Below are positions 21,243-27,075 of a stretch of DNA of 55,875 bases, piece after piece (within the stretch, counting starts at the first letter, position 1; every line of letters begins with the position of its first letter). Under the pieces are notes generated by a model, which made no database searches, was not told where the DNA came from, and saw nothing but the letters and a program-made list of their open reading frames with translations. The DNA comes from an uncultured Rhodobiaceae bacterium (GTDB lineage Bacteria; Pseudomonadota; Alphaproteobacteria; Parvibaculales; Parvibaculaceae): contig CAJXOU010000012.1 of the NCBI GenBank assembly GCA_913057645.1, forward strand, positions 1 through 55,875, written 5' to 3'. The position numbers were made by a program, and so were the translations under genes.

Positions 21243-22139
21243 TCAGGGGCTGAAACCGGGCGGTGTGACGGGGGCTTCGCGCAGCAGCAGGACCGAAAGA
21301 CGGCGGTTGGCGGCCATGTAGGGGTCTTCGGGGAAAAGCGGCTCGGAGTCCGCCTTGCCGACGACCTGGTAGATGCGATCGTTGGAGAGGCCGGCATTTT
21401 CCAGAATGCGCCGCGTCGCGTTCGCCCGGTCGGCGGTGAGCTCCCAGTTGGAGTAACCGGGACGGCCGGCCACGGGGTTCGCATCGGTATGGCCGGAAAT
21501 GCTGACGCGGTTCGGCAGCTTGATGAGAATGCCGGCGACTTCGTCGAGCAACTTGCGCGTCCGCTCGAAAGGCTCGGCGTGGCCGGAGGGGAACATGGAG
21601 CGGCCATCCTGATCGACGATCTGGATGCGAAGGCCTTCGGGCGTTTCATCGATGATGACGTTGCGCGAAAGCTCGGCGAGGTCCGGATTTTCGCGCATGG
21701 CCTGGCGGATGCTTTCGGCGGCGCTGCGGAAGTTCCGTTCGTCGCGCGCGGACTTCTCCTTCATGAGCTTGTCCATCTGCGCGGCGTCCTTCGCTTCCTT
21801 CTCGGCAAGCTCGGGGCTTTTCGGCTGCGCGGGCGTCGAGATCGTCATGACGACCTGCGGCTTGGTGCCGGGCATGCGCGCGCCTTCCTCGTCGAAGGCG
21901 GTGCCGCCCATGATGCCGCCGGCGCCGCTGGTCGAGCGGCTGACATTGGAGGGGGCGAAATAGTCGGCGAGGCCCTGCTTCTGTTCCGGCGTCGTCATGC
22001 TGATGAGCCACATCAGCAGGAAGAAGGCCATCATGGCGGTCACGAAGTCGGCATAGGCGATCTTCCAGGCGCCACCGTGGTGGCCGTGGACGACCTTCTT
22101 GACCTTCTTGAGGATGATCGGCTGTTCGTTGGTGGCCAT
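21243..22139 (-). CDS. motB: Flagellar stator protein MotB
   Basis: A 298-residue stator subunit with an N-terminal membrane helix carrying the proton-channel Asp (WKIAYADFVTAMMAFFLLMW, about residues 25-44) and a C-terminal OmpA-like peptidoglycan-binding domain (about 165-285: SGHTDANPV, ELTADRANATRRIL). MotB anchors the MotA-MotB stator and conducts protons. It starts 20 bases after motA. No other flagellar genes are present in the window. Confidence 0.94.
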   Translation of the reverse strand: MATNEQPIILKKVKKVVHGHHGGAWKIAYADFVTAMMAFFLLMWLISMTTPEQKQGLADYFAPSNVSRSTSGAGGIMGGTAFDEEGARMPGTKPQVVMTISTPAQPKSPELAEKEAKDAAQMDKLMKEKSARDERNFRSAAESIRQAMRENPDLAELSRNVIIDETPEGLRIQIVDQDGRSMFPSGHAEPFERTRKLLDEVAGILIKLPNRVSISGHTDANPVAGRPGYSNWELTADRANATRRILENAGLSNDRIYQVVGKADSEPLFPEDPYMAANRRLSVLLLREAPVTPPGFSP

Positions 22140-22159
22140 CTGGTCCTGTCCTGCGCCCG

Positions 22160-23023
22160 TCAGCTCGCAGCCTGAAGCGAGGCGGTGGACTGTTCGACTT
22201 CAATGAAGGTGGGGCGCACTTCGGACATCAGCGCCTTGCGCGCGAACTCGATCGAGACGGCGGGCGCGTATCCCGCCATGTGCGCGAGGAGGCCGGCTTT
22301 CATCGACAGATAGTATTTGGCTTCGGCTTCGTAGGTGTTGCGCAGCGACTGCGCCATCGGCCCGAAGAATCCGTAGGCGACGAAAACGCCGAGGAAGGTG
22401 CCGACGAGCGCGCCGCCGATCAGGCCGCCGAGCACGGCGGGCGGCTGGTCGATGGAGCCCATCGTCTTGATGACGCCGAGCACGGCGGCGACGATGCCGA
22501 GAGCGGGCGTGCCGTCGGCAAGCGCCTGTATGGCGGAGACGATGCGCTCCTGCTCCTGATGATGGGTTTCGAGTTCCTCGTCCATGAGCGATTCGAGCTC
22601 ATGCGCGTTCTCGGTGCCGAGCGTGATCATGCGCAGGTAATCGCACATGAACTCGACGGCGTGGTGGTCGGCGGAGAATTTCGGGAACTGGGCGAAGATC
22701 GCACTGTCGGCCGGATTCTCGACATGGGCTTCCAGCGCGAGATTGCCCTTGCTCTTGGCGAGCTTGAAGAGCGTGTACTGGAGGCCGAGCAATTCGAGGA
22801 AGGCGTCCTTGTCGTAGCGCGAGCCCTTGAAGAGCGTTCCGAAGATGCTGCCGGCCGCCTTGAGGACGGAGGGAGGATTGGCGATGCAGAACGCGCCGAG
22901 CGCGGCTCCCAGAATGATGACCGCCTCGAAAGGCTGCCACAGAACTTCCAGGTGGCCGCCCATCGCGGCGTAGCCGCCGAAGACGCTCAACAAAACCACT
23001 ACGATGCCGACAATGAGCCGCAT
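22160..23023 (-). CDS. motA: Flagellar stator protein MotA
   Basis: A 287-residue four-helix membrane protein that converts proton flow into torque on FliG. MRLIVGIVVVLLSVFGGYAAMGGHLEVLWQPFE is the usual opening; GTPALGIVAAVLGVIKTMGSI holds the conserved third helix and FVAYGFFGPMAQSLR the fourth. The cytoplasmic loop carries charged residues that meet FliG (MDEELETHHQE region). The frame is open to 23107; ATG 23023 fits the family. Confidence 0.94.
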   Translation of the reverse strand: MRLIVGIVVVLLSVFGGYAAMGGHLEVLWQPFEAVIILGAALGAFCIANPPSVLKAAGSIFGTLFKGSRYDKDAFLELLGLQYTLFKLAKSKGNLALEAHVENPADSAIFAQFPKFSADHHAVEFMCDYLRMITLGTENAHELESLMDEELETHHQEQERIVSAIQALADGTPALGIVAAVLGVIKTMGSIDQPPAVLGGLIGGALVGTFLGVFVAYGFFGPMAQSLRNTYEAEAKYYLSMKAGLLAHMAGYAPAVSIEFARKALMSEVRPTFIEVEQSTASLQAAS

Positions 23024-23297
23024 TTGCCCAAGCACTTTCTTTACGTTAACCCCGGCCGCCCGCCTCGCAGCAAGCCCGCCCCACCAGTTCGGCCATTCTT
23101 GGGGCATGGCTCTTAACAGCGGGTTTAACCAAAGACCTGATTGGGCGCTCTGGCGCCGTTTTGCGCGAAATTCCGCCGATTTGCACGGGTGAGTGTTGCG
23201 CGCGACGCTGTGCGTGGCTTAAACCGGGCCAACTGATTAAGGATGCGTTGACAAACGACCGTTGGCGGGCCGGGGTCCGCGAGGGAGCAAAGGTCAG

Positions 23298-24589: not shown

Positions 24590-25396
24590 ATGCCGGAAGA
24601 GAATCCTGCGGCGGAAGCCGCCGAAAGCGCAACGGATGCGGCCAACGGGGCCGCCGAAGGCGCCGGCGGAGGAGCCGAGGGGGCGGGCGATACCGCGGCG
24701 GGTGCGGCAGATATCCTGGCGCAGTCGGGAGGCGGGGACGCCTGGTACTCGATCGCGTCGTTGCTCGACAAGGGCGGTCCGATCGTCGCGATCCTGCTGG
24801 TCCTGTCGGTAATTTCGGCAGCCGTGATCCTGCTCAAGATATTCCAGTTCTGGTCGGCGGGCCTTTCCAAGCGCAGCTTCGTCGATCCGGCCGTCGACAA
24901 GGTCGAGGCGGGCGATCTCAGCGGCGCGCTCGAGATTCTGAAGAAGCAGAAGACGCCACTTGCCCGGGCGATGGCGGCGGGCGTACGCGCAAAGATGCGC
25001 GGCGATCTGCGCGACGAAGACGTGGCCGCGGAAATCTCGCGCGTCGGGACAATGGAAATCGGATCGCTGCAGCGCTATCTGCGCTGGCTCGAAGTGATCG
25101 GCAACATCTCGCCGCTGCTCGGCCTGCTCGGCACGGTGATCGGCATGATCAATGCCTTCCAGAGCCTGGAGGCGGCAGGAACGCAGGTCGACCCGGCGCT
25201 TCTTTCGGGCGGCATCTGGGTGGCACTGCTGACGACGGCGGTGGGTCTCATCGTGGCGCTGCCGGCGATCACGGCGCTCAATCTCTTCGAGGGCAAGATC
25301 GACCAGGTACGGCTGTCGATGAGGGATGCAGCGGCGCGTGTGATCGCGGCGCTGCATGTGCGGCCGGGATCGGTGCAGTCCAGAGCAGCGCAGTAG
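24590..25396 (+). CDS. exbB: ExbB/TolQ/MotA-family proton channel protein
   Basis: A 268-residue inner-membrane protein with an unusual Ala/Gly-rich N-terminal stretch (about residues 1-48) before helix 1 (GGPIVAILLVLSVISAAVILLKI), then a cytoplasmic loop and helices 2 and 3 (EVIGNISPLLGLLGTVIGMINAFQSL and GGIWVALLTTAVGLIVALPAITALNLFE), the ExbB signature. ExbB pentamers hold an ExbD dimer and use the proton gradient to move a partner protein. It starts an operon of four genes and follows a GGGAGGAG ribosome site. Confidence 0.93.
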   Translation: MPEENPAAEAAESATDAANGAAEGAGGGAEGAGDTAAGAADILAQSGGGDAWYSIASLLDKGGPIVAILLVLSVISAAVILLKIFQFWSAGLSKRSFVDPAVDKVEAGDLSGALEILKKQKTPLARAMAAGVRAKMRGDLRDEDVAAEISRVGTMEIGSLQRYLRWLEVIGNISPLLGLLGTVIGMINAFQSLEAAGTQVDPALLSGGIWVALLTTAVGLIVALPAITALNLFEGKIDQVRLSMRDAAARVIAALHVRPGSVQSRAAQ

Positions 25397-25415
25397 CGCG
25401 TCGGAGGCTCCGGAG

Positions 25416-25823
25416 ATGTTCGAAGAACCCGTCCGCCGCAGAGGGATGGCCAGCCTGACGCCGCTGATCGACGTGGTGTTCCTGCTGCTCATCTTTTTCA
25501 TGCTGACGACATCTTTCCTGCAGACGCAGTCGCTGTCGGTGGTGACGCCCGCGCCGAGCGCGGAGGATCTGCCGAAGGACGCACGGGTGGTCGAGATCTG
25601 GCTGCTCGGGAACGGTACGCTCGCGATCGACGGGAAGCCGGTCGAGCGTGCAACGCTGACAGAGGCTCTCAACACCGCCATCGGCGAGCGAACGGACCTG
25701 ACCGTCACGATCCTCGCGGAGAAGGGGTCGAGGACGCAGGCGCTGGTTGCGGCCGTGGAGGCGGCTCGGCAGTCGGGCGCGAAGAGCGTCGGCACCGCAC
25801 GGGTGGAGAAGATCGCGCGATGA
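25416..25823 (+). CDS. exbD: ExbD/TolR-family protein, canonical
   Basis: A 135-residue protein with one membrane helix and a periplasmic domain. Its helix starts TPLIDVVFLLLIFFML and keeps Asp19, the essential proton-carrying residue of ExbD. The periplasmic part (AIDGKPVERATLTEALNTAI) is typical. ATG 25416 has CGGAG directly upstream; the frame is open from 25356 inside exbB. The stop overlaps the next start (ATGA). Confidence 0.92.
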   Translation: MFEEPVRRRGMASLTPLIDVVFLLLIFFMLTTSFLQTQSLSVVTPAPSAEDLPKDARVVEIWLLGNGTLAIDGKPVERATLTEALNTAIGERTDLTVTILAEKGSRTQALVAAVEAARQSGAKSVGTARVEKIAR

Positions 25824-26227
25824 TCGAGTTCGACGAAGAACAACCGAGAAAGCAGTTCGAGACGCTGGTGCCGCTCATCAATGTGGTGTTCCTGCTGCTG
25901 ATCTTCTTCCTGCTCGCCGGCACGATGCAGCCGGCGGAGAACGTCGCCGTGTCGCTGCCGGAAGGCGCGCTCAATGACAGGGAGCGCGAGGTGCCGACGA
26001 CACTGATCGTGGAGGCCGACGGGTTCGTGTGGCTCGGCGACCGGCCGACGGACGCGAAATTCGCGGGCAAACTGGTCGAGCAGTATCTGAGCGAGGAGGG
26101 AACGAAGCGCGTTGCGATCAAGGCGGATGCGGATGCGCCCGCCGAAGCGGTGCTCGAACTCATGGAAGGCTTGCGCGAAGCGGGCGTGGAACAGGTGACG
26201 ATCATGACCGAGCGGAGTGGGTCATGA
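25820..26227 (+). CDS. ExbD/TolR-family paralogue lacking the channel Asp
   Basis: A second 135-residue ExbD-like protein. Its helix reads VPLINVVFLLLIFFLL: Asn21 stands where the first copy has Asp19. The rest looks intact (periplasmic domain with GFVWLGDRPTDAKF and VAIKADADAPAEAVLELMEGLREAGVEQVTIMTE). Both copies are in one coupled operon, so a mixed ExbD dimer with one protonatable Asp is possible (inference). The stop overlaps the TonB-like gene (ATGA). Confidence 0.9.
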   Translation: MIEFDEEQPRKQFETLVPLINVVFLLLIFFLLAGTMQPAENVAVSLPEGALNDREREVPTTLIVEADGFVWLGDRPTDAKFAGKLVEQYLSEEGTKRVAIKADADAPAEAVLELMEGLREAGVEQVTIMTERSGS

Positions 26228-27075
26228 GCATGGCGGCGACCATGCCCGAAAACGGCGGGGGGGAACCGCGCGAGTTCCGGCTACGCAATTTCATCATCGC
26301 ATCCGTGGTGCTTCACGGGCTGCTGTTCCTTTCGGCGTTTCTGACATTCGGCGGGATTTTCGGCGGACCTGGGCCGGGCGGCGGCGAGGCGGTGACGTTC
26401 CAGCTCGCGGCGGGCTCTGCCAACGACCGCTATGCGGCGCCGCCAAAGCCGGTGGAAGAACCGAAGCCGGAAGTGAAACCCGAACCACCGAAGCCGCCGG
26501 AGCCGAAGCCGGAGACGGCGGTGCGGAAGGCGGCGAAACCGATTCCGCCGCCGGAGGAAATTCCCGAACCGACGCCTGAGCCCGTCGAACAGGCCTCGAG
26601 CGCGGGCGGCGGCACGCAAGGCGGGCAGGCCGGCGGCGCGGGTGGCGACGCGGAAGAAACGATCCTCAACAAGAAGGGCAACTCGCTTACCGCAGGGCAG
26701 ATCCGCGCGCAGATGACGGGCAAGACCTTTCACCTCGAAATGGGGCGGATCGAACTTGAGGGTGGCAGCAGGCTCATCAACACGATCATCGAGCTTCATG
26801 CCGACGGAACGACGGATGTGGAACTCATCCAGTATTTCCATCAGACCTATCATCGCGGATCGTCGTCCACGCGAAGCCGTGACGGTGACGGCACGTGGTG
26901 GATCGAGGGCAATCGCTGGTGCCATAAGTCGGACGAAATCCAGTACGGCACCACGGACTGCTACGACATGACGAAAGAAGGCAGTATCGTGCGGCTCTAT
27001 TACGGGCCCTGCACGAACATGTCCTCGCAGCTCTGCAAGACAGGCCGCATCGCCGCCGAAGGCGAGATTCGCTAG
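26224..27075 (+). CDS. TonB-like protein with a non-TonB C-terminal domain
   Basis: A 283-residue protein with TonB layout at the N-terminus: one membrane helix (about residues 24-45, FIIASVVLHGLLFLSAFLTF, with a His as in TonB) and a Pro/Glu/Lys-rich spacer (about 75-125). A Gly-rich linker leads to a C-terminal domain (about 155-283) that lacks TonB-C features such as the YP...A...G box. It has DGDGTWWIEGNRWC, TTDCYDM, GPCTNM and QLCKTG: four cysteines and a GTW pattern like small lipocalin-type DUF995 domains. This likeness is from memory. It is coupled to exbB-exbD-exbD. Confidence 0.75.
   Translation: MSMAATMPENGGGEPREFRLRNFIIASVVLHGLLFLSAFLTFGGIFGGPGPGGGEAVTFQLAAGSANDRYAAPPKPVEEPKPEVKPEPPKPPEPKPETAVRKAAKPIPPPEEIPEPTPEPVEQASSAGGGTQGGQAGGAGGDAEETILNKKGNSLTAGQIRAQMTGKTFHLEMGRIELEGGSRLINTIIELHADGTTDVELIQYFHQTYHRGSSSTRSRDGDGTWWIEGNRWCHKSDEIQYGTTDCYDMTKEGSIVRLYYGPCTNMSSQLCKTGRIAAEGEIR

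Follow-up and report, generated by a model that had tools for sequence, protein, structure and literature searches.

The window, by which we mean the whole 55,875-nucleotide stretch analysed here, comes from a Parvibaculum-type genome and carries at 24590-27075, on the forward strand, four tightly coupled genes in the order exbB, exbD1, exbD2 and TonB-like. The closest named locus for the window's protein is found in Parvibaculum sp. HXMU1428-15 (96 % identical). The genes and the parts of the fourth protein are as follows:

24590..25396, +: exbB, 268 aa, MotA/TolQ/ExbB proton-channel protein (PF01618, MotA_ExbB, E 9.8e-31)
25416..25823, +: exbD1, 135 aa (PF02472, ExbD, E 1.9e-21), proton-carrying Asp retained (TPLIDVVF)
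25820..26227, +: exbD2, 135 aa (PF02472, ExbD, E 4.1e-21), Asn for Asp (VPLINVVF)
26224..27075, +: TonB-like energy-transducer arm, 283 aa from the translation, weak N-terminal TonB/TolA matches, without TonB_C
26278..26364, +: transmembrane helix with S-V-V-L-H (SxxxH), read from the sequence, motif conserved in homologues
26380..26427, +: D-box-like strand GGGEAVTFQLAAGSAN, directly after the membrane helix, fitting the pattern of PMC10907165
26437..26594, +: Pro/Glu/Lys-rich spacer, read from the sequence
26674..27072, +: C-terminal four-cysteine domain, predicted eight-stranded calycin/ToxS-like barrel (two alignments, models and fold comparison)

The exbD1/exbD2 and exbD2/TonB-like joints are both 4-nt ATGA overlaps, and the exbD1 start, an ATG at 25416, agrees with homologues (MFEEP). 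An earlier note on this DNA had proposed an ExbB-ExbD-ExbD-TonB-like operon, and the four open reading frames are indeed present, with Pfam matches to MotA_ExbB and, twice, to ExbD. Two peculiarities that it had singled out fared less well: the “split ExbD pair” consists of two full-length ExbDs, paired exbD genes being common in the class, and the unusual Ala/Gly-rich start of ExbB is an N-terminal extension, long ExbBs being already described (PMC9008036). By eye, the neighbours of the operon are a MarR-type regulator and a 3-hydroxyisobutyrate dehydrogenase-like gene, both housekeeping-looking; no partner gene adjoining the operon is evident, and scans of the operon for promoters, terminators and tandem repeats returned nothing. 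A MotA-MotB-like pair of the same motor superfamily lies about 1.5 kb upstream (window 21243-23107, minus strand), and such a pair is also seen in other species near orphan arms, i.e. arms without an adjacent stator operon (L045, L108).

The fourth protein is laid out as a TonB-type arm, with a transmembrane helix bearing SVVLH, then GPGPGGGEAVTFQLAAG, then the Pro-rich spacer, so that the helix and spacer reported earlier are both present. Across homologues SxxxH is conserved as S/AxxxH, and the stretch VTFQLAAG matches the hydrophobic/hydrophilic pattern of the D-box, the stretch by which ExbD holds TonB (PMC10907165). This D-box-like strand is the best conserved part beyond the end domain in operon-borne homologues. 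Comparison of the whole protein to NCBIfam gave only weak TonB/TolA matches, located in its N-terminal half.

The four-cysteine end domain

The end domain comprises residues 151-283, about 130 aa with four cysteines, and these cysteines are invariant in 25 divergent homologues from seven families, at identities down to 22 %. Because of this invariance the four-Cys pattern is not a chance feature, and the four-cysteine end with a GTW/WC pattern described in the earlier note is real. No Pfam match to TonB_C (PF03544/PF13103) was obtained for the fourth protein at E 1, and hhalign against the TonB_C of sister operons returned a probability of 0.3 %; TonB_C was accordingly rejected as the identity of the domain, as was TolA-C, no TolA-type end being recognized by Pfam or NCBIfam. 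Submitted alone or as an alignment, the domain matched nothing in Pfam, NCBIfam, PHROGs or PDB sequences. The end domain is a replacement of TonB-C, and the known TonB-box binder is missing.

AlphaFold2 models from two different alignments, both shallow, reached mean pLDDT values of 81 and 82 and agree in their succession of secondary-structure elements, one helix and eight strands. The best VIA-align match for both models was the ToxS periplasmic domain 8u2f_B (Z 10.5, rmsd 2.8, 111 aligned; Z 10.8, rmsd 2.7, 111 aligned), followed at Z 6-9 by TP0435, numerous lipocalins (many of them at 6-8) and designed barrels. Foldseek E-values were weak (best 0.018), and the fold call relies on the consistent VIA-align result. 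By prediction, the end domain is thus an eight-stranded calycin/ToxS-like barrel, a fold which, together with the Pfam and hhalign results, upholds the original call that this end is not TonB-C. It resembles the periplasmic barrels of ToxS and VtrC and the lipocalins in predicted fold, with about 8 % identity to ToxS and no sequence match, and differs from all of them in its four conserved cysteines and its attachment to a motor arm.

This fold could indicate that a hydrophobic small molecule or a lipid is the ligand of the barrel, with the motor driving its loading, release or transfer across the periplasm. The nearest structure is ToxS, the VIA-align lists also include VtrC with bile salt and lipocalins with lipids, and bile sensing by ToxRS and VtrA/VtrC is reported in the literature. 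A shared fold is no proof of a ligand, however, and the NlpE and potempin E barrels, which have other roles, appear in the same lists; we regard a ligand-handling function as unlikely.

A second alternative is that the operon encodes an ordinary TonB serving outer-membrane receptors, with an end that either diverged past recognition or is an analogue still binding TonB boxes. The stator and gene order are as in ordinary TonB operons of the class, and the transmembrane helix, D-box-like strand and Pro-rich spacer are all TonB-like. Yet profile similarity to TonB_C is absent, the predicted fold is different, and the usual tonB, which the earlier note had suggested looking for elsewhere in the genome, is represented there by three proper TonB_C proteins, one of which adjoins its own ExbB-ExbD (L121). 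Contig C58 of the same genome bears a TolQR-type set, and the genome also encodes eight TonB-dependent receptors, whose genes all lie on contigs other than the window's. An ordinary TonB therefore appears quite improbable to us. These TonB_C proteins, TolQR-type set and receptors cover the ordinary jobs, and since normal Ton and Tol are both present, the operon is an addition here.

We consider it likely that the operon encodes a Ton/Tol-type energy-transducing system in which TonB-C has been replaced and the barrel acts on something in the envelope that is not a TonB box. ExbB and ExbD1-ExbD2 would assemble into an inner-membrane stator using proton motive force, which would grip the fourth protein at its SxxxH helix and D-box-like strand, while the Pro-rich arm would span the periplasm. 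Proton flow through ExbB-ExbD1-ExbD2 would then move the arm, and the barrel at its end would engage its partner in the envelope; a target other than TonB boxes is a reasonable expectation. This partner would most likely be an outer-membrane or cell-wall protein or lipoprotein, and less likely a hydrophobic small ligand, since a pulled arm needs a tethered load. Motors of this kind normally open iron-uptake pores; the job of this one at the cell envelope is probably different and as yet undescribed, because the pore-gripping end is replaced by a barrel and one ExbD lacks the proton-carrying residue. The proposal of an undescribed energy-coupling system is partly supported, and loses two of its arguments for novelty, as paired exbD genes and the ExbB are common to ordinary TonB operons of the class.

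Descriptions of Ton and Tol usually name two outputs, nutrient receptors on the one hand and Tol-Pal on the other, and a conserved third end type on the same arm would therefore imply a third kind of proton-gradient-powered envelope work. The window's system shares with TonB-ExbB-ExbD the stator proteins, SxxxH helix, D-box-like strand and Pro-rich arm, and with many alphaproteobacterial ton operons the gene order, but it has a four-Cys barrel and no TonB-C, one of two ExbDs without the proton Asp, and an ExbB with Val at the Glu176 position. With TolQ-TolR-TolA it shares the motor superfamily and an arm that would act on something besides TonB-dependent receptors, whereas TolA-C is lacking, no tolB or pal was seen nearby, and the TolQR-type set of the genome is separate.

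Distribution of the barrel and orphan arms

The four-Cys domain was detected in 36 of 37 Parvibaculaceae genomes, the single exception being 79 % complete, and was scarce in the other families of that sample of relatives. Across the class, it was found in 20/385 sampled genomes; the matches were strong for families f1, f126 and f167 and moderate for f42, f4, f54 and f99. All strong and moderate matches are on TonB-like proteins with a transmembrane helix and spacer, placing the domain on such arms in six alphaproteobacterial families beyond Parvibaculaceae; the weaker matches are secreted or fused proteins. A search of 398 genomes of the phylum found none beyond Alphaproteobacteria, the only two matches being alphaproteobacterial.

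Within the family, exbB-exbD-exbD lies directly upstream of the barrel arm at 26 of 30 loci and is absent at four, and the operon is present in f126 and f167 too. Homologues do not always follow paired exbD genes, a regularity the earlier note had proposed to check: barrel arms without adjacent exbB-exbD-exbD occur in four Parvibaculum genomes (L020-L023; also L045) and at L047/L048. These orphan arms occupy the same chromosomal place as the operon (L108:8069-8863, L045:5671-6768, L047:5947-6888), flanked by a MarR-type regulator and flavin reductase on one side and by 3-hydroxyisobutyrate dehydrogenase and a decarboxylase on the other, and because this place is kept, loss of the stator genes is a simple reading. 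The barrel protein can persist without a neighbouring motor. No Asn-type ExbD was found elsewhere in two orphan genomes (G006 and G004); therefore, either the arm can do without this motor or a different stator can take its place. The flanks read in f42, f4, f54 and f99 contain no exb genes, and one f54 genome (G089) has an Asn-type pair elsewhere. Three orphan relatives (L020-L022) have lost the SxxxH serine and the D-box-like stretch, and in a fourth (L023) the stretch is altered, a suggestive loss of putative coupling motifs that amounts to only two or three independent cases.

Several further proteins resemble the domain. Weak relatives form the C-terminus of MocR-type regulators (PLP aminotransferase-like; L051:2488-4425, L052:4357-6174), and the four-Cys pattern is absent from both. 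Secreted-looking stand-alone proteins (L071-L075) carry a W-C-W-C pattern resembling the domain core, and proteins of this type are a possible source of the swapped domain. At one locus (L041:6969-7655), the operon is immediately followed by a second four-Cys domain, carried by a short protein that has no Pro-rich spacer.

The ToxS-like fold, the fusion of weak relatives to MocR-type regulators, the secreted stand-alone relatives and the existence of orphan arms without a motor would all be compatible with a barrel that is a sensor, gating the stator or signalling, and not a pulled load. In the operon, however, the barrel occupies the position of TonB-C on a Pro-rich arm with coupling motifs, and the regulator-fused relatives lack the four-Cys pattern, such that we judge a sensor role very improbable and retain the energy-transducing arm as our preferred interpretation.

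The Asp/Asn ExbD pair and its effectors

The ExbB of the window has the threonine-bearing transmembrane motifs LLGTVIGM and LLTTAVG, and its TM3 motif GGIWVALLTTAVGL, when aligned by motif, carries Val where E. coli has Glu176, a position occupied in this ExbB subfamily by V, Q, T, A, I, L or E. ExbD1 reads PLIDVVF and ExbD2 PLINVVF, the two differing at the position of the proton-carrying Asp of ExbD/TolR/MotB. The Asp motif of exbD1 is present at all family loci with the operon. Across 69 paired loci, a set that includes duplicate retrievals of some genomes and in which L076-L102 had been found through the Asn motif itself, the order was Asp-then-Asn in 68 and Asp-then-Ser in one. A test free of this Asn-motif bias used loci chosen by the ExbB TM3 motif only, which occurs in 46/289 sampled genomes: at 30 of the 30 loci fetched in this way (27 counted by script and three, L146, L147 and L158, by reading), Asp stands in the first ExbD and Asn in the second. 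The exbD pair had been taken as an oddity, but the pairing itself is ordinary in this class; the fixed Asn of ExbD2, overlooked at the time, is the real departure.

The fourth gene downstream of this Asp/Asn stator varies. Among the sampled genomes, it is a normal TonB in most of the class and a barrel arm in families f1, f126 and f167, and at L091, L092 and L114 (7458-8582 in L114) the last gene of the exbB-exbD(Asp)-exbD(Asn) operon encodes a transmembrane protein with a vWA domain (VWA_4, E 1.5e-6), a third effector type in the place of TonB. Because the same stator type precedes TonB_C, barrel or vWA proteins, the fourth gene is a variable effector, the stator acting as a chassis that can be combined with different effectors and the barrel being one that has been swapped in.

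If ExbD1 and ExbD2 form a heterodimer, an Asp in one and a fixed Asn in the other would leave one working proton site. The Asp-to-Asn change in MotB has been called protonation-mimetic, and the rotary model has two central subunits that are nominally identical (PMC9389320). We tentatively propose, at somewhat less than an even chance, a class-wide obligate ExbD heterodimer with a single Asp and a protonation-mimicking Asn, serving as chassis for TonB-C, barrel and vWA effectors. Such a one-site heterodimer, if true, would contradict models in which equivalent central subunits alternate in proton carrying. The proposed one-site stator is the most consequential point of the window's system: the natural Asp/Asn pair provides a means, for which artificial mutants have otherwise been used, of asking whether a 5:2 motor depends on having two equivalent proton sites.

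In the mostly open-access literature searched, we found neither an Asp/Asn ExbD pair nor a TonB-like protein with a lipocalin-like end described. The tonB1-exbB1-exbD1-exbD2 operon of Sphingobium SYK-6 likewise pairs exbD genes, but it has tonB first and both of its ExbDs have Asp25, as against Asn in the second ExbD of the window, and all ExbDs in Sphingobium keep the Asp (PMC8599685). Myxococcus AglRQS also combines one ExbB-like with two ExbD-like proteins; both of the latter are described with Asp, its output differs from that of the window's system, and its two ExbD-like proteins may form either hetero- or homodimers (PMC9389320). The window's own genome contains another, partial-scoring pair of ExbD matches (G000:C8:53052-53537). 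A further exbD pair type, NTTPLVDVMLVLL / NTTPLIDVMLVLL, with Asp in both members, was seen in genomes of the genus with orphan arms and also in G134 (L118, L124, L126, L133, L136).
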